33,103 nucleotides of DNA from Sedimenticola sp. (GTDB taxonomy: Bacteria > Pseudomonadota > Gammaproteobacteria > Chromatiales > Chromatiaceae), in assembly GCA_027068915.1 (NCBI GenBank), contig JAMOLT010000031.1, forward strand, positions 1 through 33,103. The letters are read 5' to 3'. Positions 1 to 33,103 of this stretch are shown here, one piece after another. Under the pieces are notes generated by a model. That model made no database searches, was not told the origin of the DNA, and saw nothing but the letters and a program-made list of their open reading frames with translations. Numbering within the stretch: the stretch's first letter is position 1; the number at the start of each line of letters is the position of its first letter. The position numbers and the translations under genes are program-made.

Positions 1-233
1 GTTACTTGCGGCATATTGGCCTGTACGCCTATAGAGCTGCTTTCATCAAGGAATATGTCAGCTGGCCTGAAGCACCTATCGAAAGCAGTGAATCATTGGA
101 ACAGCTGCGTACCTTGTGGCATGGCAAACGCATTCATGTTTCTCTGGCCGCAGAGATTCCCCCGGCCGGGGTGGATACCATTGAAGATCTGCAGCGGGTT
201 GAGGCCCTACTCGGGAATACGCCCGGACAATAA
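1..233 (+). CDS. kdsB: 3-deoxy-manno-octulosonate cytidylyltransferase, C-terminal end (partial)
   Basis: KdsB activates Kdo as CMP-Kdo in the cytoplasm for lipopolysaccharide inner-core synthesis. Only the last 77 or so codons are present; the reading frame enters from outside the window, with the first whole codon at 3-5, and ends at TAA 231-233. The segments [25 protein letters not shown] and [18 protein letters not shown] are the usual KdsB C-terminal blocks, which shape the dimer and the active-site lid. The stop lies inside a direct repeat of about 160 bp whose second copy is at 2764-2925. The gene's 3' end overlaps by 27 nt a remnant of a convergent gene on the minus strand. This copy is the functional tail, since the other one is frameshifted. 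I am confident of the family. Confidence 0.93.
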
Positions 234-303
234 TTCCATTACCTTCGTGGAATACTCATCCGCATTGTCCTTGTTGCTCAAGGACAAGGTCTTGCAATGG
301 TCA
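143..303. repeat. Direct repeat, copy 1 (kdsB tail plus tail of a convergent gene)
   Basis: This stretch is repeated at 2764-2925 with roughly 95% identity by eye and one single-base indel (five C here, four C there, near 159-163 and 2781-2785). It holds the last 29 or so codons of kdsB and, on the other strand, the last 31 or so codons of a small conserved gene. Similarity stops abruptly at about 303, exactly where an IS91-type transposase fragment begins. The two copies bracket an island of about 2.46 kb. Confidence 0.93.
207..303 (-). pseudogene. 3' remnant of the small conserved gene that is intact at 2829-3095
   Basis: On the minus strand this encodes the end of the 88-residue protein found whole at 2829-3095 and finishes with the same [11 protein letters not shown] and TAG stop. 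Compared with the intact copy it carries four amino-acid changes in about 31 residues (P to S, T to A, M to T, E to K) and has lost the upstream two thirds of the gene, replaced by the IS91-type fragment. It is therefore a dead tail left by a duplication or insertion. Confidence 0.8.
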
Positions 304-505
304 TTACGGCTTTCTGGCCAATCGCTGCCGAAAGGCCTCACTGACCCTGATACGCAAGATCCTGGCGCAATCGGAAAAAGCGGAAGAAAAGGGGGAAGCC
401 GAAGCGCCCGAAAGCACCTTGCTTTGTCCCAAATGCCATCAGGGGCATCTACTGCCAATCCGGATCCTGAATCCGTCATGGTCGTCAATCACCGCGCCTG
501 GCTGA
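302..505 (+). pseudogene. C-terminal fragment of an IS91-family transposase
   Basis: An open frame without a start begins right at the end of the direct repeat and reads HYGFLANRCRKASLTLIRKI, later CPKCHQGHLLPIRIL, stopping at TGA 503-505. The GFLANR block followed by a CPxCxxG zinc-binding pair close to the C-terminus is what I recall for IS91-type rolling-circle transposases (Y2 HUH family). Only about 67 codons remain, so the catalytic core is absent. The abrupt start at the repeat edge marks a recombination junction. Family assignment is by recognition, not by search. Confidence 0.6.
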
Positions 506-522
506 CGTGCTGAACCAGAGTT

Positions 523-543
523 GCTACCCGCTTGGTGGGTAGC
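523..543. repeat. Perfect 7-bp inverted repeat after the IS91-type fragment
   Basis: GCTACCC and GGGTAGC are separated by seven bases, 18 nt past the transposase fragment's stop. IS91 elements carry a hairpin near their terminus, so this may be the remnant element end. It has no T-run and so is unlikely to be an intrinsic terminator. Confidence 0.4.
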
Positions 544-750
544 TATGGTCAAAAGGCAGGAAATACCTTAGACTCGAAAGGGAATAGCAATAACGGGCAG
601 GGAAAATGCAAAGGAAGGGCAGCTCGAATGGACAATAACAGGTGCAGGAAATCTTCAAATCTGTCCACAGACCGTTGACCCAAACGGTTGCCGAAATACA
701 ATCCCCCCTATAGTAAGAGTGCGCCAGTCTGGTTGGCGGCATAGTCCAAC

Positions 751-791
751 AGGCATTTACCTGCCATGCTGCGCATAGCAGGTAAATGCTT
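751..791. repeat. Long hairpin upstream of the NYN gene
   Basis: Arms 753-764 and 778-789 are a perfect 12-bp inverted repeat (GCATTTACCTGC and its complement). After one mismatch the stem continues with four more pairs, 766-769 with 773-776, leaving a three-base loop. It lies 30 nt before the chosen start of the NYN gene, so it could be an operator, a transcript-stabilising hairpin or the end of a mobile element. There is no T-run on the plus strand. I see nothing recognisable in 544-750. Confidence 0.55.
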
Positions 792-820
792 AGATGTTAT
801 GTGAAAAAACAGGAAATTTT

Positions 821-1630
821 ATGGTATCTCCAAGATTGATAGCAAAAATAGAGTCAGAAGAACCAACTCTCAGGTTGGCGGTACTCATTGACGCTGATAA
901 TGCCCAGGCTGCAGTCATCGATGGACTCCTTGCGGAAATCGCAAGATACGGTGAAGCTACCGTGAAAAGAATTTATGGGGATTTTACTGCACCAACAAGC
1001 GCATCATGGAAGAAAGTTCTTCAGACATATGCAATAAAACCGATACAACAATTTGCGTATACAACAGGGAAAAATGCGACTGATAGTACCATGATTATTG
1101 ATGCCATGGATTTGCTATATACACGAAATTTTGATGGATTCTGCTTAATAACAAGCGATAGTGATTTTACAGGCTTAGCTGTTCGTTTGCGCGAAGAAGG
1201 TATTACTGTTCTTGGATTTGGTGAGCAAAAAACACCACAGGCATTTAGAAATGCATGTCATAAATTCATATTTACCGAGGTATTGCGCCCACAAATTGAT
1301 AATGGAAAAGTAGAGAGCAAACAAACAGCCATTCAGAATGAGAGTGAGGCGCAGCATAAGCCAAATACAACTACCAAACCGATTAAATTCCCGAAAAAGT
1401 TTGTTTTAAAGGCACTTGAACAATCTACAGATGATACTGGTTGGGCGAATCTTGGGACATTTGGTAGCTATCTCACAAAATTACAGCCGGACTTTGATTC
1501 AAGGTTATTTGGCTATAAGAAACTTTCTGATTTGGTTAAGGACAAAAGAGATATATTTGATGTTGAGAAAAGACGATCTCCTGGATCAGAACAAAATGTA
1601 CTTTATATTCGTGCTAATCAAAAAGTGTAA
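821..1630 (+). CDS. NYN (PIN-like) domain protein with C-terminal LOTUS/OST-HTH domain
   Basis: A 269-residue protein probably acting as a metal-dependent ribonuclease. The N-terminal half (about residues 18-155) is a NYN/DUF88 domain of the LabA type: LRLAVLIDADNAQ, then KRIYGDFT, IIDAMDLLY and ITSDSDFTGLAVRLREEG supply the acidic residues expected for metal binding. After a Lys/Thr-rich linker (about 166-190), the C-terminal part (about 190-265, with WANLGTF and FGYKKLSDLV) fits an OST-HTH/LOTUS domain, which in other proteins binds RNA. I chose ATG 821 because AGGA lies 6 nt upstream; an in-frame ATG at 794 has no such site. Codon use is markedly AT-rich compared with core genes nearby, consistent with transfer. 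It lies alone inside the kdsB island. The natural substrate cannot be told from sequence. Confidence 0.8.
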   Translation: MVSPRLIAKIESEEPTLRLAVLIDADNAQAAVIDGLLAEIARYGEATVKRIYGDFTAPTSASWKKVLQTYAIKPIQQFAYTTGKNATDSTMIIDAMDLLYTRNFDGFCLITSDSDFTGLAVRLREEGITVLGFGEQKTPQAFRNACHKFIFTEVLRPQIDNGKVESKQTAIQNESEAQHKPNTTTKPIKFPKKFVLKALEQSTDDTGWANLGTFGSYLTKLQPDFDSRLFGYKKLSDLVKDKRDIFDVEKRRSPGSEQNVLYIRANQKV

Positions 1631-1645
1631 CAGAATGTAACAGTG

Positions 1646-1712
1646 AGCGTAACAGAGCGTAACAGAGCGTAACAGAGCGTAACAGAGCGTAACAGGGTCA
1701 AGAGCGTAACAG
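1646..1712. repeat. 10-bp tandem repeat (AGCGTAACAG)
   Basis: Five perfect head-to-tail copies of AGCGTAACAG fill 1646-1695; a sixth follows at 1703-1712 after a 7-base interruption. Weaker versions (GTAACAG) lie just before, from about 1627. The array starts at the NYN stop codon and runs into the GGGTCAGG end of a RAYT-derived element. There are no spacers, so it is not a CRISPR array. Confidence 0.9.
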
Positions 1713-1948
1713 GGTCAGGTCTTGCTTTTTGCATCCAGGCGTTGTAGGTGGGAGAACATGGTCAGGCCGTTGCGAATAGGATTTGCAGGAGCGCTATACC
1801 ATGTCACTTCATGAGGCGGCAGGCGGGAAGATATCTATCTAGATGGTGATCGGCAGTTATTTCTCGATGTGCGGACAGTAGTAAGTGAGCGATTTGACTG
1901 GCGTATGAGAGTGGGGCTTGCAGCATGAACGCAAATAGCAAGACCTGA
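1713..1948 (+). mobile_element. Decayed RAYT-derived mini-element, copy 1
   Basis: The ends are inverted: AGGTCTTGCTTTTTGC at 1718-1733 matches the complement of GCAAATAGCAAGACCT near 1931-1946 at 15 of 16 positions. Between them a frame from ATG 1758 reads MVRPLRIGFAGALYHVTS, then an in-frame TGA at 1812, then GGRREDIYLDGDRQLFLDV, ending at 1928. This is the N-terminus of a REP-associated tyrosine (Y1, HUH) transposase, whose family reads PLRIEFAGALYHVTSRG at this place. The catalytic HxH and Tyr are missing, so it cannot encode an active enzyme. Copy 2 is at 2519-2727. Confidence 0.75.
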
Positions 1949-1994
1949 TACTCTCTGCGCTCTCTGCGCAGTACAAAATTATAAGGAGCATTTA

Positions 1995-2321
1995 GTGGGC
2001 GATAATAGGGCTATGCAAGTAAATAAGGCATTTTCACTTATTGTGAATAGCCTATTATTTATCGAGGCACTATTAACAACAATTGCCATTCCTCAATTTG
2101 AGGGCATATTAAATGGTCTAGAGAAAGAAATACCATTAATTACAAAAATTATTTTTCTAAGCCCTGTCTATATTTGGTTACTTCCAATATTTGGCATTTT
2201 TTTTTATATAAAGAATATAAAAAATTATAAAGGTGCTGGGTATGGGTATATAGCAACTTTTATAGCAGGTATATTGTGGTTGCCATTAGCAATATATGGT
2301 TTGTATTTGCCAATGCTATAA
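1995..2321 (+). CDS. Small three-helix membrane protein, unknown function
   Basis: A 108-residue protein starting at GTG 1995, supported by AAGGAG at 1983-1988. I see three hydrophobic segments: about residues 13-34, 51-72 (ending before KNIKNYKG, so that loop is probably cytoplasmic) and 82-106, which runs almost to the C-terminus. There is no signal-peptidase site. The region is strongly AT-rich (many ATA and TTA codons), like the NYN gene and unlike the core genes. I do not recognise a family. It sits between two RAYT remnants, so it may be island cargo. Confidence 0.6.
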   Translation: MGDNRAMQVNKAFSLIVNSLLFIEALLTTIAIPQFEGILNGLEKEIPLITKIIFLSPVYIWLLPIFGIFFYIKNIKNYKGAGYGYIATFIAGILWLPLAIYGLYLPML

Positions 2322-2322
2322 A

Positions 2323-2431
2323 GGCGCCTCCAATAATCGTCATTCCGGCGCATGCCGGAATCCATAAGCTCTTGATATTTTTAGACACCGGCCTGCGCCG
2401 GTGTGACGAAAATAGAATTATTCTAGGTGCC
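2323..2431. mobile_element. REP-pair / MITE-like element
   Basis: Two hairpins with similar stems face each other: ATTCCGGC/GCCGGAAT (2342-2361) and ACACCGGC/GCCGGTGT (2385-2404), each with a four-base loop and bordered by CGTC or GACG. The outer ends GGCGCCT (2323) and AGGTGCC (to 2431), each next to an AATAAT/ATTATT run, form imperfect terminal inverted repeats. This CGTCATTCCGGC type of paired repeat is widespread in proteobacterial intergenic DNA. It begins 1 nt after the stop of the membrane protein gene and could also end its transcript. Confidence 0.65.
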
Positions 2432-2518
2432 CATAAGTAATCAGAATTATAGTAGTAATAATAGGGGGCACCCATTAGCCGCCTCCGGTCAACAGGGCGA
2501 ATACAGTGTAATAGAGCA

Positions 2519-2727
2519 TTGTAGGCAGGAGAGCATGGTCAGGCTGTTACGAATAGAATTTGCAGGAGCGCTATACCATGTCACTTCATGAGGCGGCAGG
2601 CGTGAAGATATCTATCTGGATGGTGATCGGCAGTTATTTCTCGACGTGCGGGCAGTCGTATGCGAGCGATTCAACTGGAGTATGAGAGTGGGGCTTAATA
2701 GCATGAATGCAAATAGCAAGACCTGAC
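2519..2727 (+). mobile_element. Decayed RAYT-derived mini-element, copy 2
   Basis: This is a direct repeat of 1742-1948 (offset 777, roughly 85% identical by eye). The frame from ATG 2535 reads MVRLLRIEFAGALYHVTS, then the same in-frame TGA (2589), then GGRREDIYLDGDRQLFLDV, and ends at TGA 2724-2726. It retains the right-hand end GCAAATAGCAAGACCTGA, but the left GGTCAGGTCTTG end seen in copy 1 is not present. The shared stop codon means the ancestor was already broken before the two copies formed. Confidence 0.75.
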
Positions 2728-2763
2728 GCTCTCTCTGCGCTTGCGTCAGCAGGATAGCACTTT

Positions 2764-2855
2764 CTGCGGGCCGCAAAGATTCCCCTGCCGGGGTGGATAC
2801 CATTGAAGACCTGCAGCGGGTTGAGGCCCTACTCGGGAATCCGCCCGGACAATAA
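2764..2855 (+). pseudogene. Orphan kdsB tail (frameshifted)
   Basis: This matches the last 29 or so codons of kdsB including the TAA at 2853-2855. One C is missing in the PPAG region (2781-2789), which shifts the frame, and there is an ACG to CCG change near the end. No KdsB body precedes it; 2519-2763 is RAYT remnant and unrelated sequence. It is a relic of a former kdsB 3' end. Confidence 0.8.
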
Positions 2856-2925
2856 TTCCATTACCTCCATGGAATACTCATCCGTATTGTCCTTGTTGCT
2901 CAAGGGCAAGGTCTTGCAATGGTCG
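2764..2925. repeat. Direct repeat, copy 2
   Basis: Second copy of 143-303. Here the minus-strand gene tail is intact and joined to its full body (2829-3095), whereas the kdsB tail is an orphan without the rest of the gene. Similarity ends at about 2925 in GCAATGGTC, the same point as in copy 1. Confidence 0.93.
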
Positions 2926-3095
2926 CAGCGTCGCATGGCATTGCCATACTGATCCGCCTGAATGCGTTGGTTCTGGGCGGCCTGTTCGGGAACGATTACC
3001 AGCGCATCTTCTTCGCGCAGTATCTCGACAATAATCCAGACCTTGCCACGAAACAGAAAGCGTTGCCCGATGAGTTTTGTCAGTTGTGTATGCAT
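2829..3095 (-). CDS. Small conserved hypothetical protein convergent with kdsB
   Basis: An 88-residue soluble protein without signal or membrane segments. The N-terminal part (LIGQRFLFRGKVWIIVEILR) looks like a small beta-barrel opening; a central CDHC pair at about residues 57-60 could hold a metal but is isolated. ATG 3093-3095 is preceded on its strand by a G-rich stretch usable as a binding site. That the same gene tail lies convergent to the true kdsB end suggests it was the original kdsB neighbour before the island arose. Function unknown. The reality of the gene is supported by the decay pattern: this copy is whole while the detached tail at 207-303 has accumulated changes. Confidence 0.6.
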   Translation of the reverse strand: MHTQLTKLIGQRFLFRGKVWIIVEILREEDALVIVPEQAAQNQRIQADQYGNAMRRCDHCKTLPLSNKDNTDEYSMEVMELLSGRIPE

Positions 3096-3122
3096 GGCGC
3101 CTGCCTGCCAGATTGATCCTGG

Positions 3123-3150
3123 TTATCCAGAAACTCCCGGGTACTATAAT
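3123..3150 (+). promoter_or_regulatory. Candidate promoter for the methyltransferase gene
   Basis: A perfect TATAAT (3145-3150) is preceded at 16 nt by a weak -35 match, TTATCC (3123-3128). Transcription would start near 3157, giving a leader of about 117 nt before ATG 3274. Confidence 0.4.
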
Positions 3151-3273
3151 ACAGCTGCGCCTGGCAGGGAAACAGATGGCTTGTGATACACCTTCAACAA
3201 ATGCTGCATGCTGGCGTGGAGTTGATTCCTTCGCGTATACTGACGTGGATTTTCCACTTCTGCTGATTTGACC

Positions 3274-4116
3274 ATGCATCATTTTTCCTCCAAGGCAGCC
3301 TGGAACCCGGAGCATATTTCCACCGTCTGGTTCGACTCTCATTTCAATCATGCTGCAAATCGCGTGATTGATTGGGTGGGTGCTGAACTGGATATTGAAA
3401 ATGCAGCAACCATGTTGGATTTTGGCTGCGGAGGGGGGATTACCACTTTGGGTGTGGCGTTGCGTTATCCGTCTGTTCAGTTGCATGGCGTGGATATCGG
3501 CGACAAGTTTCTGCAATTGCCGGAATTGGCGAAAGAGCAACTGCATTTGCAGCAGTTGCCTGACAACCTGCATCTCCACAGGATACAACCGTTGCAGCCA
3601 CTGGCTGAAAGCCATGCGGTGGATGCTGTTTTCAACTGGTCGGTATTCGAACATGTGCCGCAATCCCACATCCCAGTGATATTTGCCGATCTGTATAACA
3701 GTATTCGGGAAGGAGGCCTGTTTTTCCTGCAAATCGAGCCTTTTTACCATTCGCCCTGGGGTTCCCATTTACGGCGTTTTGTCGATACGCCCTGGGCGCA
3801 TTTGCTTTGGCCTCCCGAGCGCCTTCAGGATGCGGTTATGGACTATGATGGCGAGATTCCGGCCCAGCATCAGGGGCATCAGTATCATGTGCGGGGCGTG
3901 GAGGATTTCAAGCGTTTCCACCTCGAAGAGTTCAACAGCCTGAACGGCATCACTGCGGATCAGATCACGGCATATGTCCGGGGTGCAGGGTTTGAGATCC
4001 TCAGAGAACAGCGATTGACCATGGATATTCCTGTCCCGGATGTATTGCTGGAGCAGTATCGAAAAGAGGATTTGCTCACCAATGGGATACTGTTGCTGGC
4101 GAGGAAACAGGTATAA
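3274..4116 (+). CDS. Class I SAM-dependent methyltransferase
   Basis: A 280-residue cytoplasmic protein. The SAM-binding motif I, MLDFGCGGGITTLGVALRYP, is at about residues 46-65, followed by motif II-like LHGVDIGD (about 71-78) and the motif IV region VDAVFNWSVFEHV, which ends the Rossmann-fold core. The C-terminal 110 residues are specific to this protein and rich in His and aromatic residues. I chose ATG 3274; a TTG two codons earlier has no advantage. The substrate cannot be inferred. Neither the upstream small gene nor the downstream copper cluster suggests a shared pathway, and the 100 nt before the next gene carry their own promoter-like signal. Confidence 0.75.
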   Translation: MHHFSSKAAWNPEHISTVWFDSHFNHAANRVIDWVGAELDIENAATMLDFGCGGGITTLGVALRYPSVQLHGVDIGDKFLQLPELAKEQLHLQQLPDNLHLHRIQPLQPLAESHAVDAVFNWSVFEHVPQSHIPVIFADLYNSIREGGLFFLQIEPFYHSPWGSHLRRFVDTPWAHLLWPPERLQDAVMDYDGEIPAQHQGHQYHVRGVEDFKRFHLEEFNSLNGITADQITAYVRGAGFEILREQRLTMDIPVPDVLLEQYRKEDLLTNGILLLARKQV

Positions 4117-4182
4117 AGCACCGCAATTTGTGATGCCTGGCCGGTTTATGCCTGCGAATATTGGGGTGGGGAGTAATTGTTG

Positions 4183-4211
4183 TTGACCGCTTGAATGAAA
4201 TTCATTATCGT
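4183..4211 (+). promoter_or_regulatory. Promoter with a palindrome in the spacer, head of the copper cluster
   Basis: TTGACC (4183-4188) and TATCGT (4206-4211) are 17 nt apart. The spacer holds a perfect 13-bp palindrome, AATGAA-A-TTCATT (4194-4206), which overlaps the -10. An operator between -35 and -10 is the arrangement used by MerR-type and some other metal regulators, but the spacing here is 17, not the 19-20 typical of CueR. Transcription would begin about at the ATG at 4218, giving a very short leader. Confidence 0.4.
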
Positions 4212-4217
4212 TTATCC

Positions 4218-4589
4218 ATGCGTACGCTGCACCGGAAATTCGTTGCCATCCTGCTTTCCCTGCTATTGGGATTACTGCCATTGCAGGGCGTGTTTGCAGG
4301 CGAAGCCCCCATGAACGCGCGGGGCAGTGTGGTTAATATGTCCGGTATGACGGGCATGGATCATGAGAAAATGCTCCAAATGGCACAGACTTGTGACCAA
4401 TGTGATCAGGATAGCTGCTGCAATGGCGGCTCCTGCAGTATTGATCATTGTGCATCTTGCGCCCTGTCGGCGGTGTTGACGGGTTCGTCCATGAATCTGC
4501 CCCTGCAGGTGAAAACCAGCTTGAGCGGGTTTGCTTCCCTGTCTCCCAGTTCCACGCTTTCGTTTCTGTATCGCCCTCCACGGGCCTGA
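4218..4589 (+). CDS. Secreted Met/Cys/His-rich small protein, putative periplasmic copper binder
   Basis: A 123-residue protein. Residues 1-27 form a signal peptide: MRTLHRK, then a leucine-rich core, ending in GVFAG with likely cleavage after VFA. The mature part has a Met-rich stretch (VNMSGMTGMDHEKMLQMAQ) followed by a Cys cluster, CDQCDQDSCCNGGSC and HCASC, and finally a Ser/Leu-rich tail. Met and Cys runs with His are typical of Cu+ binding. I chose ATG 4218 because it begins a proper signal peptide; longer in-frame GTG starts would bury it. It precedes the CopA oxidase gene by 94 nt. I know similar short proteins next to copA-copB in other proteobacteria but no settled name. Confidence 0.65.
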   Translation: MRTLHRKFVAILLSLLLGLLPLQGVFAGEAPMNARGSVVNMSGMTGMDHEKMLQMAQTCDQCDQDSCCNGGSCSIDHCASCALSAVLTGSSMNLPLQVKTSLSGFASLSPSSTLSFLYRPPRA

Positions 4590-4601
4590 TTCCCTGCTAT
4601 A

Positions 4602-4627
4602 GCTCCGTCCGGAGCCAATCCTTTTTT
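4602..4627 (+). terminator. Weak intrinsic terminator or attenuator before copA
   Basis: GCTCC/GGAGC with a four-base loop (4602-4615) is followed after six bases by TTTTTTT (4622-4628). The stem is short, so only part of the transcription may end here, leaving less of the downstream copA-copB message. Confidence 0.35.
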
Positions 4628-4683
4628 TGTTAAAAGTGTTCTTCGGTGCGTCTGGCGTACCGAAATGCAGAGGAATCGACAAC

Positions 4684-6519
4684 ATGAGATACAAATATAC
4701 AGACACTTCCGGGGCAGGTATGTCCCTTTCACGCCGCCGTTTCGTACAGGGGCTGGCCATGGGAGGCGTGGCCGCAAGCATGGGCTTGAGTTCCCGTGCA
4801 CTGTGGGCCAATGCCGGCCAGCAACAGAAGATCCCCACCCTCAGGGGCACGGAATTCAACCTGTCCATTGGTGAACAGGTGGTCAATTTCACGGGTACGC
4901 CGCGTATCGGCACTACGATAAACGGTTCTCTGCCAGCGCCAATCCTGCGCTGGAAGGAAGGCGAAACCGTCACCCTGCGGGTGACCAATAATCTGCCGGA
5001 AACCAGCTCTATTCATTGGCATGGCCTGATCCTGCCCAGCGGCATGGATGGCGTGCCGAATATCTCCGACGGTTTTTCCGGCATTGCCCCCGGGGAAACC
5101 TTCACCTACAAATTCCCCCTGGTACAGAGTGGCACCTACTGGTATCACAGCCATTCCGGGTTTCAGGAACAGACCGGCCTGTATGGGCCTATCGTCATCG
5201 AGCCTCGTGAACCCGAGCCTTTCGTTTATGACCGTGACTATGTGGTCATGCTGTCCGACTGGACGGATGAGGATCCCACAGTGGTGTATGCCAAGCTGAA
5301 AAAACTCAGCCACTACTACAACTTCAACGAGCGCACCCACAAGGATTTGATGAAAGACCTCAAGGAAAAGGGACTGGCCCGCACCTGGTCTGAACGCAAG
5401 ATGTGGAACCAGATGCGCATGAGCCAGCGGGATCTCGCGGATGTGACCGGCTACAGCTACACCTATCTGATGAACGGGCAGACCCCGGCCGATGGTTGGA
5501 TGGGCTTGTTCCGCAAAGGGGAAAAAATCCTGCTGCGCTTTATCAACGGTTCCGCCATGAGCTTCTTCGACGTGCGCATTCCGGGCTTGAAAATGACGGT
5601 AGTGGCGGCGGATGGTCAATATGTACAGCCGGTTTCCGTGGAAGAGTTTCGTATTGGCGTGGCGGAAACCTATGATGTCATAGTAGAGCCCGATGACGGC
5701 GCCTATACCATATTTGCCCAATCCATTGATCGCTCCGGTTATGCGCGGGGCACGCTCACGCCCGATCCCGCCATGACCGCCGAGGTTCCGCCAGTGGATG
5801 CGGTGCCTGATCTTACCCACACCGATATGGGGATGGATATGAGTGGCATGGCCCATGGTCAGCACGATATGGCTGGCATGGACATGCAAGGCATGGATCA
5901 CAGTCAGCATGACATGGGTGGCATGGACATGCAGGGTATGGATCACAGCCAGCATCAGATGGGCGGCGGCAAACCGGCAAACCCCTCGGATTTCTCTTCG
6001 GGAAAGATTATTCACGCGCCGGCGGAATATGGCCCCCATGTGGATATGCGCGTGAAAGCGCCCCAGTACCGTCTGGATGATCCCGGCGTTGGCCTGAGAA
6101 ACAACGGGCGAAGGGTGCTGACCTATGCGGATCTCAAACACCTTCGTGGCACCGATGATCCCCGGGAGCCGGATCGGGAAATCGAGCTGCACCTGACAGG
6201 CAATATGTCGCGCTATATGTGGTCGATGGATGGCGTCAAATTTGCGGATGCCGAGCCCCTGCGCTGGAAGATGGGTGAGCGTCTGCGCATTACCTTCGTC
6301 AACGACACCATGATGAACCACCCCATGCACCTGCATGGCATGTGGAGCGACCTGGAAACCGGTGACAATGACTACATTCCACGCAAGCATACGGTTATCG
6401 TGCAGCCAGGCGCCCGTATCAGCTATCGGGTGACGGTGGATGCGGAAGGAGGGTGGGCCTATCACTGCCATCTGTTGTATCACATGCTGGGCATGTTCCG
6501 TGAAGTACAGGTCAGCTGA
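4684..6519 (+). CDS. copA: CopA-type multicopper oxidase (copper resistance protein A)
   Basis: A 611-residue periplasmic oxidase of the PcoA/CopA family, which oxidises Cu+ to the less toxic Cu2+ and binds extra copper. A Tat signal, SRRRFVQG, lies at residues 16-23. The copper ligands are all visible: HWHG at 111-114, WYHSHSG around 153-159, HPMHLHG around 546-552, and HCHLLYHMLGM at 594-604, where Cys595 is the type 1 ligand and a Met follows. A Met/His-rich insert with repeated GMDMQGMDHSQH lies at about 381-430. ATG 4684 has AGGA 9 nt upstream; an in-frame ATG at 4720 would also keep the Tat motif. copB follows after 11 nt with its own strong binding site. Not to be confused with the P-ATPase, also called CopA, downstream. 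Confidence 0.93.
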   Translation: MRYKYTDTSGAGMSLSRRRFVQGLAMGGVAASMGLSSRALWANAGQQQKIPTLRGTEFNLSIGEQVVNFTGTPRIGTTINGSLPAPILRWKEGETVTLRVTNNLPETSSIHWHGLILPSGMDGVPNISDGFSGIAPGETFTYKFPLVQSGTYWYHSHSGFQEQTGLYGPIVIEPREPEPFVYDRDYVVMLSDWTDEDPTVVYAKLKKLSHYYNFNERTHKDLMKDLKEKGLARTWSERKMWNQMRMSQRDLADVTGYSYTYLMNGQTPADGWMGLFRKGEKILLRFINGSAMSFFDVRIPGLKMTVVAADGQYVQPVSVEEFRIGVAETYDVIVEPDDGAYTIFAQSIDRSGYARGTLTPDPAMTAEVPPVDAVPDLTHTDMGMDMSGMAHGQHDMAGMDMQGMDHSQHDMGGMDMQGMDHSQHQMGGGKPANPSDFSSGKIIHAPAEYGPHVDMRVKAPQYRLDDPGVGLRNNGRRVLTYADLKHLRGTDDPREPDREIELHLTGNMSRYMWSMDGVKFADAEPLRWKMGERLRITFVNDTMMNHPMHLHGMWSDLETGDNDYIPRKHTVIVQPGARISYRVTVDAEGGWAYHCHLLYHMLGMFREVQVS

Positions 6520-6530
6520 GGAGGAATGAA

Positions 6531-7229
6531 ATGAAACATATCAATAAAGTATTACTGGCGTTGCTCTTCAGCGGGAATGCTGTCGCCGGCATGAGTGATG
6601 ATCCGTTCCTGTTTATGCTGAAAGTGGACAAACTGGAACTGCGCGATGCAGATGACGGCACCGCGCTGGTCTGGGATGCCCAGGCCTGGGCGGGGAAGGA
6701 CCTGCACAAGCTATGGCTCAAAACCGAGGGTGAGCGGATGAACGCTGAAACCGAGGAAGGAAGCGTGGAACTGCTGTACAGCAGGGCCATCGCGCCCTTC
6801 TGGGACTTGCAGGCGGGATGGCGGCATGATTTTCGTCCCGAACCGAATCGTGATTGGTTCGCCTTTGGCCTGAAGGGCCTGGCGCCCTATCTGTTCGAGG
6901 TGGATGCCACCGCCTATGTGGGGGAATCCGGTCGCATGGCGGCTGGCCTGGCGGTGGAATATGAATACATGTTTACGCAGAAACTGATTCTGTCGCCGGA
7001 ACTCGAGATGAGCTTCTATAGCAAAGATGACGAGGCCGTGGGTATCGGTTCCGGGCTGTCCGGGATGGAAGCGGGGTTGCGTCTGCGGTATGAAATCGTG
7101 CGGGAGTTCGCCCCTTATATCGGCGTCAACTGGTGGCGCAAGTTTGGCAATACCGCTGACTATGCCAGAGCAGAGGGTGGAAAAGTAGATGATGTCGAGT
7201 TTGTAGCGGGTTTCCGCTTGTGGTTTTGA
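6531..7229 (+). CDS. copB: CopB family outer-membrane copper resistance protein
   Basis: A 232-residue protein with a signal peptide (MKHINKVLLALLFSGNAVAG) and a body of alternating hydrophobic strands ending in GFRLWF, a C-terminal Phe typical of outer-membrane beta barrels. Blocks such as DLQAGWRHD, DWFAFGLKGLAPYLFEVDATAY and LRLRYEI are characteristic of CopB/PcoB. The family often has a long Met-rich N-terminal insert before the barrel; here it is missing, so this is a short form and the Met-rich function may be carried by CopA and the small secreted protein. GGAGGA lies 6 nt before ATG 6531, and copA ends 11 nt upstream, so both are on one transcript. Confidence 0.9.
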   Translation: MKHINKVLLALLFSGNAVAGMSDDPFLFMLKVDKLELRDADDGTALVWDAQAWAGKDLHKLWLKTEGERMNAETEEGSVELLYSRAIAPFWDLQAGWRHDFRPEPNRDWFAFGLKGLAPYLFEVDATAYVGESGRMAAGLAVEYEYMFTQKLILSPELEMSFYSKDDEAVGIGSGLSGMEAGLRLRYEIVREFAPYIGVNWWRKFGNTADYARAEGGKVDDVEFVAGFRLWF

Positions 7230-26569: not shown

Positions 26570-27488
26570 ACGCCGCCGTCCGCGGGGCCGGAACATCACC
26601 GGGATTTTGCTGTTGGACAAGCCCCTGGGCCTAACCTCCAATGCCGCTTTGCAGGAAGTGAAGTACCTGTTCAAGGCGCAGAAGGCCGGACATACAGGCA
26701 GCCTGGATCCCCTGGCTACGGGGCTTCTGCCCCTGTGTTTTGGCAATGCTACCAAGATATCCGCTTTTCTGCTGGATGCAGACAAACGCTATGAGGTGCG
26801 GATCAGACTGGGTGAAACCACTTCCACGGCGGATGCGGAAGGCGAAGTGATCGAGTCCCTTCCGGCGGAGCACATTACCCGGGAAGATGTGCAGGCCGTA
26901 CTTGGCGGCTTTCTCGGAGAAATTGCCCAATTACCGCCCATGTTTTCCGCGGTAAAGCACAAAGGCCAGCGATTGTACCAACTGGCTCGCCAGGGCATCG
27001 AGGTCGAGCGCGAGGCGCGCAATATCACCATATATGACCTGCGGCTGCTGGATTTTACCGGGCCGGAATTCAATCTTCTTGTGCACTGTTCCAAAGGTAC
27101 CTATGTGCGCACCCTGGCAGAAGACATCGGCAAGACCCTGGGCGTTGGGGCGCATGTTACAGCCCTGCGGCGCACCTTGGTCGGCCCGTTTGAAGAGCAG
27201 GATATGGTCAGTATGGAAACCCTGCAGCAGGTGTTTGAGGAGCAGGGGCTGCATGGGCTGGATCAATTGTTGTTGCCCATGGATATGGGCTTGAACCATT
27301 GGCCCGCCGTACATCTTGGTGCGGACAGTAGCTTCTATATCAAGCAGGGACAGCCGGTGCAGGTACCCAAAGCACCCACAGAAGGCTATGTGCGCATCTA
27401 TGGTGCAGATGAAAAGTTTATCGGCGTAGGTGAAATCGATGATGACGGACGGGTGGCGCCGCGTCGTTTATTGGCGAATCCCGGCTGA
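26562..27488 (+). CDS. truB: tRNA pseudouridine(55) synthase TruB
   Basis: A 308-residue enzyme making pseudouridine 55 in the T loop of tRNAs and acting as a tRNA chaperone. The N-terminus is Arg-rich (MGRRRRPRGRN), then GILLLDKPLGLTSN; the catalytic motif AGHTGSLDPLATGLLP gives Asp49. SKGTYVRTLAEDIGKTLGVG is the typical second block, and the C-terminal part (about 250-305) is a PUA-like domain. ATG 26562 lies inside the rbfA end (8 nt overlap), so translation is coupled. A gap of 150 nt to rpsO contains a leader. Confidence 0.96.
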   Translation: MGRRRRPRGRNITGILLLDKPLGLTSNAALQEVKYLFKAQKAGHTGSLDPLATGLLPLCFGNATKISAFLLDADKRYEVRIRLGETTSTADAEGEVIESLPAEHITREDVQAVLGGFLGEIAQLPPMFSAVKHKGQRLYQLARQGIEVEREARNITIYDLRLLDFTGPEFNLLVHCSKGTYVRTLAEDIGKTLGVGAHVTALRRTLVGPFEEQDMVSMETLQQVFEEQGLHGLDQLLLPMDMGLNHWPAVHLGADSSFYIKQGQPVQVPKAPTEGYVRIYGADEKFIGVGEIDDDGRVAPRRLLANPG

Positions 27489-27638
27489 ATGTAGGATAAT
27501 TCATTTTTTGCCTGGATCGGTTCAGGTTGTTGTTGCTGAAGACAGGGTTTTCGGCTTTATTTATCGCCAGTTCCGCCTGAACTCATTGTTGGACGGAACA
27601 TTGCATGTCGCAGGCGAGTGTTTATCTGGAGAAATATT
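27489..27638 (+). promoter_or_regulatory. rpsO leader with possible autoregulatory structure
   Basis: Two nested pairings are possible: GTTCAGG (27520-27526) with CCTGAAC (27576-27582), and, directly adjacent, GTTCCG (27570-27575) with CGGAAC (27594-27599). S15 autoregulates its own mRNA through leader structures that vary between bacterial groups, so this is a candidate binding site. I see no convincing promoter or terminator in the spacer. Confidence 0.4.
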
Positions 27639-27908
27639 ATGTCAATGAGTGCAGAGACCAAAAAGCAAATTGTGGAAGAGTATGGCAAGAGCCCTGCAGA
27701 TACGGGTTCTACCGAAGTTCAGGTGGCATTGCTTACCTGGCGCATCAATGACCTCACCTCCCATTTCAAGGAGCACAAGAAGGATCATCATTCCCGTCAG
27801 GGCCTGATCCGCATGGTCAACTCCCGCCGAAAGTTGCTTGACTATCTCAAAGGCAAGGACGTAGAGCGCTATCGTGATCTGATCAAGCGTCTCGGTTTGC
27901 GTCGTTAA
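27639..27908 (+). CDS. rpsO: 30S ribosomal protein S15
   Basis: An 89-residue protein, the exact length of E. coli S15, binding the three-way junction of 16S rRNA helices 20-22. [39 protein letters not shown] and the end [20 protein letters not shown] are fully typical. ATG 27639 follows TGGAG at 7 nt; a further ATG two codons downstream would be a shorter alternative. pnp starts 37 nt later. Confidence 0.97.
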
Positions 27909-27945
27909 TCCATGGCCATAAGTTCATAAACGAAGGAATACCCAA

Positions 27946-30039
27946 GTGACTGCAATCAAAAAAGAATTCCAGTTCGGCGATCACAAAGTGACGTTGGAAA
28001 CCGGAGAAGTGGCCCGTCAGGCAGATGGCGCGGTAATCATCAATATGGACGATACTGTGGTGCTCTGTACCGTAGTGGGCTCCAGGCATGCTATGGAAGG
28101 GCGCGATTTTTTCCCCCTGACCGTGGATTACCAGGAAAAGACCTATGCGGCAGGCAAGATTCCCGGCGGTTTTTTCCGTCGTGAAGGGCGGCCTTCCGAG
28201 AAGGAAATTCTGGTGGCGCGCCTCATCGATCGTCCCGTCCGACCGCTGTTTCCCAAGGGTTACACGAACGAGACGCAGGTGATTTGTACCGTCATTTCTC
28301 TCAATCCCTATGTTGATCCCGAGATTCCTTCGTTGATTGGCACCTCTGCTGCACTGGCTATTTCCGGCCTGCCCTTCCAGGGCCCCATCGGCGCTGCGCG
28401 AGTAGGCTATAAGGATGGACAGTATTTGCTGAACCCTCCTGGCGCCGGCCTGAGTGAAGTCACGGATCTGGATCTGATAGTTGCTGGTACAGACAAAGCC
28501 GTGCTGATGGTGGAGTCCGAGGCGCGGGAGCTTTCCGAAGAAGTAATGCTGGGTGCGGTGCTGTTTGGTCATGAGCAAATGCAGGTGGCCATCGAAGCCA
28601 TTCGTGAACTTGCTGCCGAAGCAGGCAAGGAAGCCATGGAGTTCAGTTTGCCGGAAGAAGATGCAGATCTGGCGCAGAAGGTTGCTGAAGTGGCGGGTGC
28701 CGGCATTGGCGAAGCCTATTCCACTACCGACAAAATGGAGCGTTATGCCAAGCTGGATGCAGTCAAGGCAGCAACGGTTGAGCAACTTTGTTGCGGTGAT
28801 GCGCCCCAGTGGTCGGAAGACCAGGTGTCAGCGGCACTGGACAAGCTGAAGAAAAAGACCGTGCGCAGCCGCATTCTTGCTGGCGAGCCGCGTATCGACG
28901 GTCGCGATACCAAGACCGTGCGCAATATCGATATCAAGACGGGTTTGCTGCCGCGTACTCATGGCTCTGCATTGTTCACCCGTGGCGAAACCCAGGCGTT
29001 GGTGATTACCACTTTGGGTACCGAGCGTGATGCACAGATCGTGGACGCCCTGGATCGCTCCTACCGCGAACCCTTCATGCTGCATTACAACTTCCCTCCA
29101 TTTTGTGTTGGTGAGACCGGACGTGTAGGCAGTCCCAAACGTCGTGAAATCGGCCATGGCCGCCTCGCCAAGCGTGGTGTGTTGTCGGTAATGCCCTCCC
29201 TGGAGGAATTCCCGTACTCCGTGCGCGTGGTTTCCGAAATCACCGAATCCAATGGTTCTTCGTCCATGGCTTCGGTGTGTGGCACCAGTCTTTCCCTGAT
29301 GGATGCCGGCGTGCCCATCAAAGCACCTGTTGCGGGTGTGGCCATGGGCCTGATCAAGGAAGGCGACGACTTTGCCGTGCTTACCGATATCCTCGGTGAC
29401 GAGGATCATCTGGGCGACATGGACTTCAAGGTAGCGGGCACAGAAGCCGGCATCAATGCCTTGCAGATGGACATCAAGATCGACGGGATTACCCGTGAGA
29501 TCATGGATACTGCACTGACGCAGGCCAAAGATGGCCGCATGTACATCCTCGGCGAAATGAACAAGGCCATCGAATCGCCCCGCCAGGAAATGTCCGAGCA
29601 TGCGCCGCGCATTATTTCCTTCCGCATCCACCCAGACAAGATTCGTGATGTTATCGGCAAGGGTGGCGCCACCATCCGCTCCATCACCGAAGAAACCGGT
29701 GCTACCGTCGATCTCGATGACAGCGGCCTGGTCAAGATCTTCTCCGTGGACAAGGCTGCCGGTGAGAAAGCGCGCAAGCGCGTTGAACTGATTACCGCAG
29801 ACGTGGAGGTCGGTACGATCTATGAAGGCAAGGTAGCCAAACTCATGGACTTCGGTGCTTTCGTGACTATTCTTCCCGGCAAGGACGGGCTGGTGCACAT
29901 CTCACAGATCAGCGAAGAGCGGGTCGAGAAAGTCAGCGACAAGCTGTCCGAGGGAGACGTCATCAAGGTGAAAGTGTTGGAAGTGGACAAGCAAGGGCGG
30001 ATTCGCCTGAGCATGAAAGCCGTGGGTGAGGACGAATAG
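27946..30039 (+). CDS. pnp: Polyribonucleotide nucleotidyltransferase (PNPase)
   Basis: A 697-residue phosphorolytic 3'-to-5' exoribonuclease and degradosome partner of RNase E, also encoded in this window. Two RNase PH domains (about 1-210 and 310-540) flank a helical linker; KH (about 553-610, [20 protein letters not shown]) and S1 (about 620-690, [20 protein letters not shown]) follow. The start GTG 27946 has AAGGA upstream. It ends in [10 protein letters not shown] and TAG 30037-30039, 31 nt before a terminator. A diverged copy of this last segment occurs at 32985-33028. The length matches the family (E. coli 711). Confidence 0.97.
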
Positions 30040-30070
30040 TCTCAAATCAGTAGCGGGCACAAAATAAAAA

Positions 30071-30092
30071 CGGAGCTTCGGCTCCGTTTTTT
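30071..30092 (+). terminator. Intrinsic terminator after pnp
   Basis: CGGAGC-TTCG-GCTCCG (30071-30086) with a stable UUCG tetraloop, preceded by an A-run and followed by TTTTTT. It ends the rimP-to-pnp operon. A second, shorter version of it is found at 33048-33065 next to the duplicate pnp tail. Confidence 0.92.
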
Positions 30093-30263
30093 GTTGTCCC
30101 CATTGTTTCTCAGAGATTCACCTGCGCTCGCCAGCCCATCCGCATGAAATATCTGGGCAGAGTAGAGTAGTAGCTTTTTCCCCTGTATGGGATAAGGTAT
30201 TTTTGAATTCGGGGAGTCTGAATAGCCAAAGAATTATCTCATGAATGAAAAACAGAAACCTCT

Positions 30264-31631
30264 ATGCCCGAGCGCAACGAACACCGCTTCGACCACACCC
30301 CCATGAATCAGGAAGACAGCTATATTCCGCCAGACATCGCTGGCGTCATCGACCCGGCCACCACCTACGACTACAATAAGGATCAGCAGCTCACCCGCAT
30401 TACCCATCCCGATGGCCAGACCATCAACCTGGACTACCATGCCCGAAAAGGCCAGCTCACCACCCTGACCCTTCCTCGTGGCAGCTACAATTACGCCTAT
30501 GATGTCACCAGTGGCGATCTCACCCGCATCACCGCACCCGATGGCGGAACCCTGTCCTACAGCTACGATGGCCTGTTGCCGGTCAACACCACCTGGGGCG
30601 GTGAAATCAGCGGCACTCTTATCCGTAGCTGGAACAATGACTTTCGTCTCAGCGCCCTGGGGCTGGATCTGGGCAATGGTGCTGATGCCCTATCCTACAG
30701 CTATGATAATGACGGCCTGCTCACCGCCACCACCCTGGGTGGACTGAGCACCACCAACAGCTACAACCTGTTCGGCGAACTGACTGCCCATAGCACCACC
30801 CACGGCTCCACGACGCGCTATGCCGCCACCTACCAGTACGACAATCTCGGGCGCATCACCCAAAAACAGGAAACTGTACAAGGTGCAGCCACCATCTATG
30901 ACTACACCTATGACCTGGCGGGCCGCCTGAGTGAAGTCAAGACCAACGGCGTCAACAACGCCACTTACGGCTTTGATGCCAACGGCAACCGCAGCGAGGG
31001 CACTTACGACGCCCAGGATCGCCTGCTTACCTGGGGCGGCGCCAGCTACGCCTACACCGCCAACGGCGAACTAAAGAGCAAAATCGAAGGGGGCGTCACC
31101 ACTCCGGGGTTCCAGCCGTTTGGGTTTGCTGGCGGCCTGTATGACCAGCATACCGGGTTGGTAAGGTTCGGGGCGAGGGACTATGATGCGGAGACGGGCA
31201 GGTGGACGAGTAAGGATCCGATACGGTTCGAGGGCGGGGATGCGAATCTTTACGCCTATGTGGCGAATGATCCGGTGAATTGGGTAGATTTGGATGGTTT
31301 ATCACCCTATCTGGGTGGAACAATGATGGATCCCGATGTCTGGTTGGCAGAGATGCTTGAATATGAATTTGATCCCGTTTTAGAAGAAGCTGTAGATTAT
31401 GGAAACTGCGTTTTATCGTGTGTGGGGGATGTCGCTATTGGTGAAGGTGTAACGCAATTAATAGAAAAAGGAGCCACAAAGGGCGCACAGTGTGTTTCAG
31501 AAAAGGCGGCGAAAGAGGTTCTGAAAAAAGCTGCAGAAAATGCTGCTAAAAAAGTAATACCTGTGATTGGGCAGTTATCTACTGGAGCTTCTGTTGGCCA
31601 GGCTGGGTCATGCTTTTGGATATGTGAGTAG
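30264..31631 (+). CDS. Truncated orphan Rhs protein with variable C-terminal tip
   Basis: A 455-residue frame. Residues about 30-290 are YD repeats (for example NLDYHARKGQLTTLTLPRGS, YDYTYDLAGRLSEVKTNGV). The RHS core follows at about 291-347: GLYDQHTGLVRFGARDYD, GRWTSKDPIRFEGG, LYAYVANDPVNWVDLDGL. Full Rhs proteins usually exceed 1000 residues; here the N-terminal portion, with signal or VgrG/PAAR adaptor regions, is missing, and the ATG at 30264 has no good binding site, so this is likely a displaced 3' end and may be silent. The tip of about 105 residues after DGL has five Cys, an Ala/Lys-rich helical middle and ends in GSCFWICE; I do not recognise it. The tip is much more AT-rich than the repeats. 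Confidence 0.75.
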   Translation: MPERNEHRFDHTPMNQEDSYIPPDIAGVIDPATTYDYNKDQQLTRITHPDGQTINLDYHARKGQLTTLTLPRGSYNYAYDVTSGDLTRITAPDGGTLSYSYDGLLPVNTTWGGEISGTLIRSWNNDFRLSALGLDLGNGADALSYSYDNDGLLTATTLGGLSTTNSYNLFGELTAHSTTHGSTTRYAATYQYDNLGRITQKQETVQGAATIYDYTYDLAGRLSEVKTNGVNNATYGFDANGNRSEGTYDAQDRLLTWGGASYAYTANGELKSKIEGGVTTPGFQPFGFAGGLYDQHTGLVRFGARDYDAETGRWTSKDPIRFEGGDANLYAYVANDPVNWVDLDGLSPYLGGTMMDPDVWLAEMLEYEFDPVLEEAVDYGNCVLSCVGDVAIGEGVTQLIEKGATKGAQCVSEKAAKEVLKKAAENAAKKVIPVIGQLSTGASVGQAGSCFWICE

Positions 31632-31633
31632 GC

Positions 31634-31786
31634 TTAATCATGAAAAAAATACTTGGAGAAAAATGTTTCATATTTTATGTATATTATTATGCTGATAAAT
31701 CCAATAATAATTGCGTATAGAGCAATCCAAAGTAGATAATCCATTGCTGTCTTATGGTATTTGTTGGGTTTTTGTGCGATTTTCAT
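31634..31786 (-). CDS. Possible small single-span membrane protein, antisense to the rhs end
   Basis: A 50-residue AT-rich frame starting at ATG 31784-31786 on the minus strand: a basic N-terminus (MKIAQKPNKYHKT), one hydrophobic helix of about 22 residues (LLWIALYAIIIGFISIIIYI), then a short charged tail. No clear ribosome binding site is visible, so it may be chance in AT-rich DNA. An immunity gene would be expected after an rhs tip, normally on the same strand; this one is convergent. The surrounding stretch 31640-31869 contains no other gene that I can support. Confidence 0.3.
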   Translation of the reverse strand: MKIAQKPNKYHKTAMDYLLWIALYAIIIGFISIIIYIKYETFFSKYFFHD

Positions 31787-31869
31787 GGGGAAATTAAAGC
31801 AAATTGCGAGTTTTGATGTCAAGTGAAGATAGGGTTATTTTGTCCGCAAAATGTTGAGAATCCCGTAGG

Positions 31870-31930
31870 GATCAATAGGGTCGATTGATTTTTTAATTGC
31901 TGCTGAACTAAACTGCCCCATCCACTCCAA
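31870..31930 (+). repeat. Left-end REP-like repeat of the RAYT element
   Basis: GATCAATAGGGTC, a short core with GATTGATT, then TGCTGAACTAAACTGCCCCA up to CCACTCC. The same series recurs at 32773-32835, and its first part recurs inverted at 32652-32680, immediately at the end of the transposase gene. Confidence 0.75.
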
Positions 31931-31945
31931 ATGAGCAGGCGAACC

Positions 31946-32668
31946 ATGGCGCGACTTCCTCGATTTGCCATCCCTGGCCATCCGCAACATGTTATTGTCC
32001 GTGGCAACAACCACGAGCCCATATTTTATGCTGACGAAGACTATCAGTTTTATCTGGAAAAGCTGAAACAGGCCTGTGAAAAACATCAATGTGATGTCCA
32101 CGCATATGTTTTGATGACCAATCATGTTCATCTACTGATGACACCCCATCGGGAAGATGGCCTGTCAAAAGTCATGCAGATGCTGGGGCGCTATTATGTT
32201 CAGTATTTCAACTACAGCTATGAACGTACAGGGACACTCTGGGAAGGTCGTTACAAGGCCTCGCTGATTGATAGTGATGTCTATGCCTTGATTTGCTACC
32301 GTTACATCGAACTCAACCCGGTGCGGGCAGGCATGGTGGATCATCCCGGAGGGTATCCCTGGTCAAGTTACTCACGTAATGCGTTGGGAAAGGAAGATGA
32401 GTTGGTAGCCCACCATTCTCTATACCAGGCCCTTGGGAAAACGGACGAACAAAGACAAAAGGCCTATCGATCCCTGTTTAGATCCAGAATACCAAACAGA
32501 ACGCTGGATGAAATCAGGGCGGCGACGAACAAGGCCTGGGTGTTGGGGAGTGAGCACTTTAAAGATAAAATTGAATCAAAGCTCAATCGTCCGGTTCGCC
32601 CCAGGGAGAAGGGCGGAGATCGAAAATCGGAGGCATATCGTAGGCAACATTCAATCAATCGAGTCTGA
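31946..32668 (+). CDS. REP-associated tyrosine transposase (RAYT, Y1 family)
   Basis: A 240-residue HUH-type single-strand transposase related to IS200/IS605 TnpA. The N-terminus MARLPRFAIPGHPQHVIVRG is characteristic. The HUH motif is MTNHVHLLMTP, and the region MLGRYYVQYFNYSYERTG followed by TLWEGRYKASLID includes the catalytic Tyr and the conserved WEGRY block; CYRYIELNPVRAGMV closes the domain. The C-terminal tail is basic (RPVRPREKGGDRKSEAYRRQ), suited to DNA binding. The start chosen, ATG 31946, gives the common family N-terminus; ATG 31931 five codons earlier is possible. The gene is free of stops and frameshifts, so it may be active on the REP-like ends that flank it. Confidence 0.9.
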   Translation: MARLPRFAIPGHPQHVIVRGNNHEPIFYADEDYQFYLEKLKQACEKHQCDVHAYVLMTNHVHLLMTPHREDGLSKVMQMLGRYYVQYFNYSYERTGTLWEGRYKASLIDSDVYALICYRYIELNPVRAGMVDHPGGYPWSSYSRNALGKEDELVAHHSLYQALGKTDEQRQKAYRSLFRSRIPNRTLDEIRAATNKAWVLGSEHFKDKIESKLNRPVRPREKGGDRKSEAYRRQHSINRV

Positions 32669-32680
32669 CCCTATCGATCG
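32652..32680 (-). repeat. Right-end inverted REP-like repeat of the RAYT element
   Basis: The complement reads GATCGATAGGGTCAGACTCG followed by ATTGATTG, matching the other two copies of the motif (31870 and 32773). It overlaps the last codons and the stop of the transposase gene. Confidence 0.75.
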
Positions 32681-32772
32681 CATAAACACAAGTTTTAGCT
32701 CACATAAGGTGCAATAGCACAGGGAGGTTGGCAAGCAGTATGATCAATAGCGGAACGCGCGAATATGCGCGC

Positions 32773-32835
32773 AGATCAATAGGGTCAGATTCGATTGATT
32801 TTTAGGTGTTGCTGAACCAAGCCGCCCAATCCACG
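32773..32835 (+). repeat. Third REP-like repeat, partial left end without transposase
   Basis: GATCAATAGGGTCAGATTCG, then ATTGATT and TGTTGCTGAACCAAGCCGCC up to CCAC, similar to 31870-31926 over about 60 bp. It lies about 100 bp beyond the transposase gene. The spacer 32681-32772 holds only a short palindrome, GCGCG-AATAT-GCGCGC, near 32757-32772. In 32836-32984 I see nothing recognisable. Confidence 0.7.
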
Positions 32836-32984
32836 GTGTTCTCATTCAGGACCTCCTGTTACGATGTACAAGGAAATACGAGTGTCGCGGCAGACAGGGT
32901 GCTGGGAGCGACCAAGGATCAACGTAATCCCGTCGCTGAACTTGATGGCAATGACATCCTCAAGGCCTGTCTCATCATCAACGA

Positions 32985-33028
32985 ACCTGAGTATGAAAGC
33001 CGTTGGTGAGGGAGAATAATCCTCAAAC
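32985..33028 (+). pseudogene. Detached copy of the pnp 3' tail
   Basis: The frame ending at TAA 33017-33019 reads [10 protein letters not shown], against [10 protein letters not shown] at the real pnp end (30007-30039). The match runs over about 42 bp from CCTGAG through the stop into CTCAAA, with about five substitutions and one inserted base. Changes within codons are mostly synonymous. Upstream of CCTGAG there is no PNPase sequence, so this is only a tail. Confidence 0.8.
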
Positions 33029-33047
33029 TGTTTGTAGTAGCAGAATG

Positions 33048-33065
33048 GGGCTTCGGCCCGTTTTT
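33048..33065 (+). terminator. Intrinsic terminator after the pnp-tail copy
   Basis: GGGC-TTCG-GCCC then GTTTTTG. It uses the same UUCG loop and position as the pnp terminator at 30071-30092 but with a shorter stem, supporting common origin of the two tails. Beyond it, up to the window end, nothing is recognised. Confidence 0.75.
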
Positions 33066-33103
33066 GTTGCGGGTCAGTTTATCTTGTGGATAGAGAGGGG
33101 ATA

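Follow-up and report, generated by a model that had tools for sequence, protein, structure and literature searches.

Why should two stretches of foreign DNA, lying near opposite ends of one bacterial contig, each follow the 3′ end of a conserved gene and each be followed in turn by a second copy of that end? The question is raised by the window analyzed here, a stretch of 33,103 nucleotides that makes up the entire contig C31 of a draft Sedimenticola genome (G000; 2.83 Mb, 61 contigs) and that was selected for showing this pattern, with islands behind kdsB and pnp that carry tail copies and RAYT transposase sequence. An earlier note on the window had offered two readings, a class of insertions that are linked to RAYT and directed at gene ends, or a tendency of RAYTs to gather where gene tails have recombined. 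We favor a different account, in which two independent insertions each duplicated the shared end of a convergent gene pair, were kept by selection and were then colonized by mobile elements; we hold it tentatively, the case for it and the case against it being close to balanced. RAYT looks mostly like a passenger and not like the common cause of the two islands. The data throughout were draft genomes, with open reading frames (ORFs) called mechanically and repeats detected by BLAST at E 1e-3.

The kdsB gene runs into the window from contig C16 and ends intact on the forward strand (1-233, stop codon 231-233). A direct repeat of 164 bp at 93% identity (E 2.8e-64) begins within it and flanks the island (copy 1, 139-302; copy 2, 2761-2924). 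The repeat holds not the end of kdsB alone, as the earlier note had described it, but the last ~95 bp of kdsB together with the last ~95 bp of a convergent gene of 88 amino acids on the reverse strand (2829-3095), and copy 2 runs into the intact version of that gene. There the two gene ends overlap by 27 bp (2829-2855), and counting the letters gave the same 27-bp overlap in the relatives G006 and G005. The 88-amino-acid gene was present in 12 of 14 relatives from the genus, each with a kdsB tail within ~200 bp of it, and had no match in the incomplete drafts G003 and G010; the 12 genomes represent empty sites. No insert was seen at the kdsB site of G006, where the two genes lie on separate contigs whose ends overlap. 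G006, a sister species, and G010 were the nearest relatives in the shared stretches compared (DNA 90-96% identical for G006, 92% around pnp for G010).

The two kdsB copies were scored at informative sites against G006 and G005; an insertion and a deletion in copy 2 make the first ~28 positions hard to read. Sites 167 and 222 group both copies against the two relatives, as expected if the lineage's own DNA was copied, and with two sites against one this origin is favored, though not proven. Four changes are peculiar to copy 1, three of them (245, 247 and 284) in the end of the 88-amino-acid gene, while those peculiar to copy 2 all fall within the kdsB end, which copy 2 no longer serves. Each copy thus appears to have decayed mainly in the part that is no longer needed there.

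The pnp gene (27946-30039, forward strand) is an ORF whose last 199 amino acids are 88-98% identical in the 14 genus relatives. Its tail and terminator hairpin are found at 30006-30101 and again at 32986-33081, both on the forward strand; in copy 1 ~36-40 bp are clear and the remainder is defined by alignment. The direct repeat proper (30006-30046 and 32986-33027) has 86% identity (E 1e-5) and the terminator is repeated more loosely, so that both islands do end in a diverged copy of a core-gene tail, as had been noted. Copy 2 is continuous with the end of holC on the reverse strand (stop codon 33074-33076). In G010, pnp is followed directly by holC across a gap of 55 bp with one hairpin, and the sequence there resembles copy 2 (89% over 119 bp); G003 is likewise an empty site with holC directly behind pnp, and the other genus members have different genes after pnp or reach a contig end. 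The copy-1 terminator is common to G000 and G006 (96%) and a second pnp tail is present in G006 too, so the pnp event is probably older than the split between these two genomes. In G006, holC and the pnp tail copy adjoin xseB-ispA (locus L110 on contig C36; gene names by reading), with no RAYT next to the tail copy. In G000, xseB has other neighbors. L110 is probably a rearrangement breakpoint, and the pnp surroundings have been reshuffled between the two genomes; the stretch to the left of the second pnp tail is short and, by eye, likely homologous in both. No RAYT was present in the assembled parts of the G006 pnp site, where the contig ends 624 bases after pnp and a RAYT may lie beyond; over these assembled parts, RAYT seems to lie outside what G000 and G006 share at pnp.

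These observations would fit a common course of events. In each event, foreign DNA may have entered where two convergent genes meet and been joined there at two offset points, which would leave the shared 3′ end of the pair on both sides of the insert. The ends of the insert could have been joined to two sister copies of the locus, in an unequal interchromatid reaction that used scant homology or none, and whatever lay between the two points would have been copied. With a 27-bp overlap between the kdsB and 88-amino-acid genes, and a single hairpin in the 55 bp between pnp and holC, DNA inserted with no copying of the ends would disrupt a gene or separate it from its terminator; selection would then keep those insertions whose copied shared ends left each gene of the pair intact. 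Afterward, IS91 and RAYT elements may have come and gone in the space between the copies, which would have been a safe harbor for them. Accessory DNA does collect mobile elements such as RAYT. A precedent comes from pneumococcal transformation, for which the available text of PMC3784515 describes tandem duplications that arise by unequal interchromatid integration and have donor DNA at their joint; by analogy, the merodiploids made in this way may resemble the islands, in that unequal interchromatid joining places incoming DNA at the duplication joint.

Two comparison cases bear on this account. In G007 (locus L166, C1:1300000-1319999), an alkyl sulfatase gene has its tail repeated at 895-976 and 4214-4295 of the locus (82 bp, 80%) around a tetrapyrrole methylase-like gene, a gene for a GGDEF protein and a 71-amino-acid ORF, beyond which queF points the other way. 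The 20 kb of this locus gave no RAYT match at E 1e-3, so tail duplications are not confined to places with RAYT. In G064 (on a 4.56-Mb contig), a RAYT, HicBA and another ORF lie between two ~2.3-kb copies of the 3′ half of a histidine kinase gene plus a whole convergent gene, with 1125 bp at 99.5%; the copies are identical up to a repeat-rich part of the second gene, with point differences, insertions and deletions beyond. The insert sits exactly at the joint, which suggests that its joining made the duplication. Its RAYT is 74% identical to that of the window, and G064 is one independent case that keeps the idea of RAYT-linked insertion alive.

Several points weigh against the account that we favor. 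Informative site 263 pairs copy 1 of the kdsB tail with G005 and copy 2 with G006. By eye, the kdsB joints show only ~3-5 bp of microhomology. The pneumococcal duplications differ in scale, being ~100-900 kb and made through repeated IS copies, whereas those considered here span 0.04-0.2 kb (2.3 kb in G064), and they depend on a repeat; a legend in the same source does refer to a very small one (PMC3784515, as far as its text was available). The RAYT material in both islands exceeds the expectation from genome-wide density, and the G064 insert has RAYT-type ends at both boundaries, ~10-20 bases from the joint. Finally, the convergent cases number four (two in the window, one each in G007 and G064), which is too few for a test of the selection argument.

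The least unlikely alternative holds that the overlapping gene ends were first copied in a short tandem duplication, and that mobile elements inserted between the copies afterward and stabilized them. It makes a dedicated enzyme unnecessary and agrees with the two of three informative sites that favor copies of the lineage's own DNA. On the other hand, an insert would have to land on the earlier joint or else shorten the copies to match, and the G064 insert lies exactly at the joint; we consider this order of events unlikely, if less so than the explanations that follow.

A role for RAYT itself calls for a closer look at the elements in the window. Behind pnp lies a RAYT gene of 245 amino acids (31931-32668, forward strand), which matches Pfam Y1_Tnp above the cut-off (E 1.2e-14) and NCBIfam REP_Tyr_transpos slightly below it (78.1 bits against 80); its sequence contains HVH, which we take to be the Y1 HUH motif. 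It is flanked by inverted end repeats within 32653-32800 (32653-32679 and 32774-32800), with a similar core in G064, and by eye by a similar copy near 31871. The gene therefore has both a Y1 HUH domain and flanking REP or terminal inverted repeats. In this combination it resembles the TIRtrons, RAYT genes with terminal inverted repeats (PMC3733652), and the G064 end GGGGACAG matches the GGGGWSAS motif quoted there; the available text of that source has no words beginning with 'duplicat', whereas here the element lies between copied gene ends. At kdsB, by contrast with the gene at pnp, RAYT material had been claimed where we find two short elements on the forward strand that are RAYT-like by reading only. 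Element 1 (1711-1963) has inverted ends at 1715-1740 and 1923-1948, and element 2 (2516-2741), 89% identical to it, stops ~20 bp short of duplication copy 2; both are read from their sequence as probably RAYT-derived. A short tandem array of GAGCGTAACA units occupies 1623-1717, between the upstream cargo gene and element 1.

If RAYT made such duplications as a rule, repeated gene tails should bracket other RAYT places more often than control positions, the enrichment that the earlier note had named as support for its idea. Under a strict rule, which required a repeat on each side with at least 20 coding bases and the stop codon inside it and omitted ORFs overlapping RAYT, we scored 131 RAYT places besides the window, drawn from the window's own genome and from a sample of relatives made up of 20 family regions, 80 named loci (the best 80 of at least 587 confirmed relatives, closer ones being favored) and 19 further regions. 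With the window left out, a repeated gene tail bracketed two of the 131 places (L207 and L333), compared with 7 of 487 controls placed within those loci and 9 of 420 placed in other stretches (0/180 in G000, 9/180 in G007 and 0/60 in matched regions). Sequence of at least 3 kb on both sides was available at 75 of the 131 places, both matches among them. L207 is clear; L333 is doubtful, its repeat overlapping the RAYT edge. The control matches were concentrated in L208, L335 and L336, and in L166 together with two pairs in L177, a transposon-like region. Tail repeats are thus no more frequent at RAYT places than at controls, a weak link being beyond detection with 131 places, and as a general rule the proposed class of insertions finds no support in these counts.

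The window's own genome gave the same picture. Its RAYT genes lie on C31, at C10:140371 and at C27:23514, with a short Y1 match at C55:67832, two weak RAYT matches (C37 and C10:1771) that the Y1 model did not recover, and RAYT-like short elements at seven further places on C10, C51, C46 and C33. By the strict criteria, no repeated gene tail brackets either of the other two RAYT genes, a finding that the earlier note had itself set down as speaking against its idea, and the C55 stretch had no direct repeat at all. One of the seven short-element places was formally bracketed (C46:5053, a 34-bp fragment), by repeats of 30-35 bp that overlap the fragment and the end of a 122-amino-acid ORF. When ORFs overlapping RAYT were admitted, C27:23514 was bracketed by a 127-bp repeat reaching the end of such an ORF, and C10:1771 (37% over 63 amino acids) by repeats of 335-553 bp. 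These three were not counted as gene-tail cases, although the C46 place might count on a stricter reading. In the same part of C46 (L118, G000:C46:1-10000), repeats of ~300-480 bp occur in several copies at 1878-5021, and a 35-bp piece lies at 5064-5098, at the end of the 122-amino-acid ORF.

Earlier rounds of counting differed in their rules. Among 20 family RAYT regions, 25 raw repeat pairs at ORF ends came from two regions (24 from L208, one from L207), with none in 20 controls; the 24 pairs of L208 were set aside as tail repeats, since they form one array of ~71-bp period that resembles clustered regularly interspaced short palindromic repeats (CRISPR) by eye. In that locus (G081:C5) the RAYT adjoins the ~71-bp-period array, possibly a CRISPR. 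When direct repeats of every kind were counted, 14 of 100 RAYT loci scored, compared with 21 of 259 control positions, and by eye most of the 14 were the RAYT's own ends or scattered repeats; an earlier strict count with the window included gave 3/132 against 10/643 control positions, some of which lay inside the same bracket as a RAYT and are left out of the final count. When the joints of 88 direct repeats were scored for inverted repeats, the high-scoring pairs of L280, L315, L309 and L293 touched no ORF end and those of L304 were a RAYT copy and a pair of similar genes; the main L207 pair went unscored, its alignment being broken.

The earlier note's second suggestion, that RAYTs gather where gene tails have recombined, fits better. 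RAYT places lay between convergent genes in 28 of 99 cases, compared with 138 of 710 other gene pairs (p 0.046, one test on mechanically called ORFs), and the available text of PMC3733652 reports REPs mainly between unidirectional and convergent genes. No report of RAYT-linked gene-end duplication was noticed in the literature searched, the texts of which were covered in part.

Against this background, a Y1 HUH RAYT event would have joined the element end to upstream host DNA on a sister copy, or a circle carrying flanking DNA would have recombined, leaving the element between direct host copies. The G064 insert, with its RAYT-type ends exactly between the ~2.3-kb copies, is in keeping with such an event, as is the fact that in both islands the mobile sequence closest to the right-hand tail copy is of RAYT type (~20 and ~185 bp away). 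The counts in the sample of RAYT places speak against it, as do the G006 pnp tail copy beside xseB and the joints of the window, which are not at RAYT ends, and we regard it as doubtful, more so than an initial tandem duplication. A narrower form, to which we give yet less weight, is that some RAYTs of this subfamily make one-ended joints, in which the element end is linked on the sister chromosome to host sequence as much as kilobases distant; element and cargo would then come to lie between long direct host copies, often convergent gene ends. On this view G064 would show such a joint fresh, and the two islands of the window would show it worn.

At its left end the kdsB island begins with 490 bp, overlooked in the earlier description of its content, that are the 3′ part of an IS91-family (Y2) element. 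This stretch (304-793, forward strand) is 74% identical to G000:C33:873-1395, which lies beside a Y2_Tnp transposase assigned to IS91 by NCBIfam (176.5 bits). Only ~66 C-terminal amino acids of the Y2 transposase remain in it (~302-499), followed by a 3′ end with a hairpin at 753-789 (z -4.5). The end with this hairpin recurs in four places of G007 and one of G001, and transposase sequence stands beside it in two of the four G007 places and in G001. By eye the hairpin is attC-like, as in integrons, and in G007 different genes follow soon after it; an integron attC was set aside, because transposase sequence stands beside the same end elsewhere, which points to an IS91 3′ end. Like IS91-family rolling-circle elements, the stretch has the C-terminus of a Y2 transposase and a hairpin-bearing 3′ end; unlike them, it is a truncated remnant without the upstream half. 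At another IS91 locus (L126, G001:C247), transposase pieces adjoin a tyrosine recombinase gene (Phage_integrase), and parts of the locus are duplicated 2.6-3 kb apart.

One might thus suppose that IS91-family rolling-circle movement made both islands, gene tails having been joined to 5′-truncated IS91 copies. Such a remnant does directly follow kdsB copy 1 in the window, and another lies ~45-60 bp behind the pnp terminator in G006. However, the window's pnp island gave no IS91 match, and the remnant at kdsB has its 3′ end facing the cargo gene and not host DNA. The sole Y2_Tnp match of G000 is on C33, in a stretch without a repeat at an ORF end, and of five other loci with IS91 ends only L123 and L126 have ORF-end repeats, those of L126 being copies of the element's own genes and those of L123 lying more than 4 kb from the IS91 end. 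This explanation has as poor a prospect as that of one-ended RAYT joints.

In genomic islands at gene 3′ ends, foreign cargo is flanked by copies of those ends, and direct repeats of gene 3′ ends around such cargo are what is seen at the att sites of integrases. Least probable of all is that the two islands are relics of this kind whose integrase has been lost, since, although foreign cargo flanked by direct 3′-end repeats is what both islands show and site 263 does not fit a copy taken from the host itself, the kdsB repeat, at 164 bp, is long, two sites favor own-lineage copies, the copies extend into both convergent genes, and no integrase was noticed among the window ORFs, a lost one leaving no trace. 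In agreement with the earlier note, neither an integrase nor a DDE transposase was seen in the ORF list of the window or among eight of its proteins run against Pfam, the other ORFs being without a family search.

The remaining contents of the two islands and the ends of the contig can be described briefly. Directly behind the IS91-family remnant, the kdsB island carries a cargo gene for an NYN and OST-HTH/LOTUS protein (794-1630, forward strand; Pfam), and between the two RAYT-like elements a small ORF (1995-2321, forward strand) that is hydrophobic by eye and assigned to no family. The pnp island contains an Rhs/YD-repeat fragment (30264-31631, forward strand; Pfam RHS_repeat). Rfam at gathering thresholds gave zero matches within the window. 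The window ends (1-127 and 32977-33103) are exact 127-base overlaps with contigs C16, which carries kdsB, and C42, which carries holC and, by reading, pepA; because these overlaps join C31 to the two contigs, both contig breaks lie close to the islands. They resemble assembler output at a branch. Base 128 is A in the window and G in G006, and mixed alleles within the sample of G000 are possible.

Insertion with duplication of shared gene ends would provide a simple reason why foreign DNA between convergent genes carries duplicated ends, in that copying the shared ends spares both genes. If this is true, duplicated tails would mark old insertion events and not one kind of mobile element. If instead the bolder RAYT reading is true, gene duplications and rearrangements would have a source in a transposase whose known activity is mainly the spread of short palindromes.

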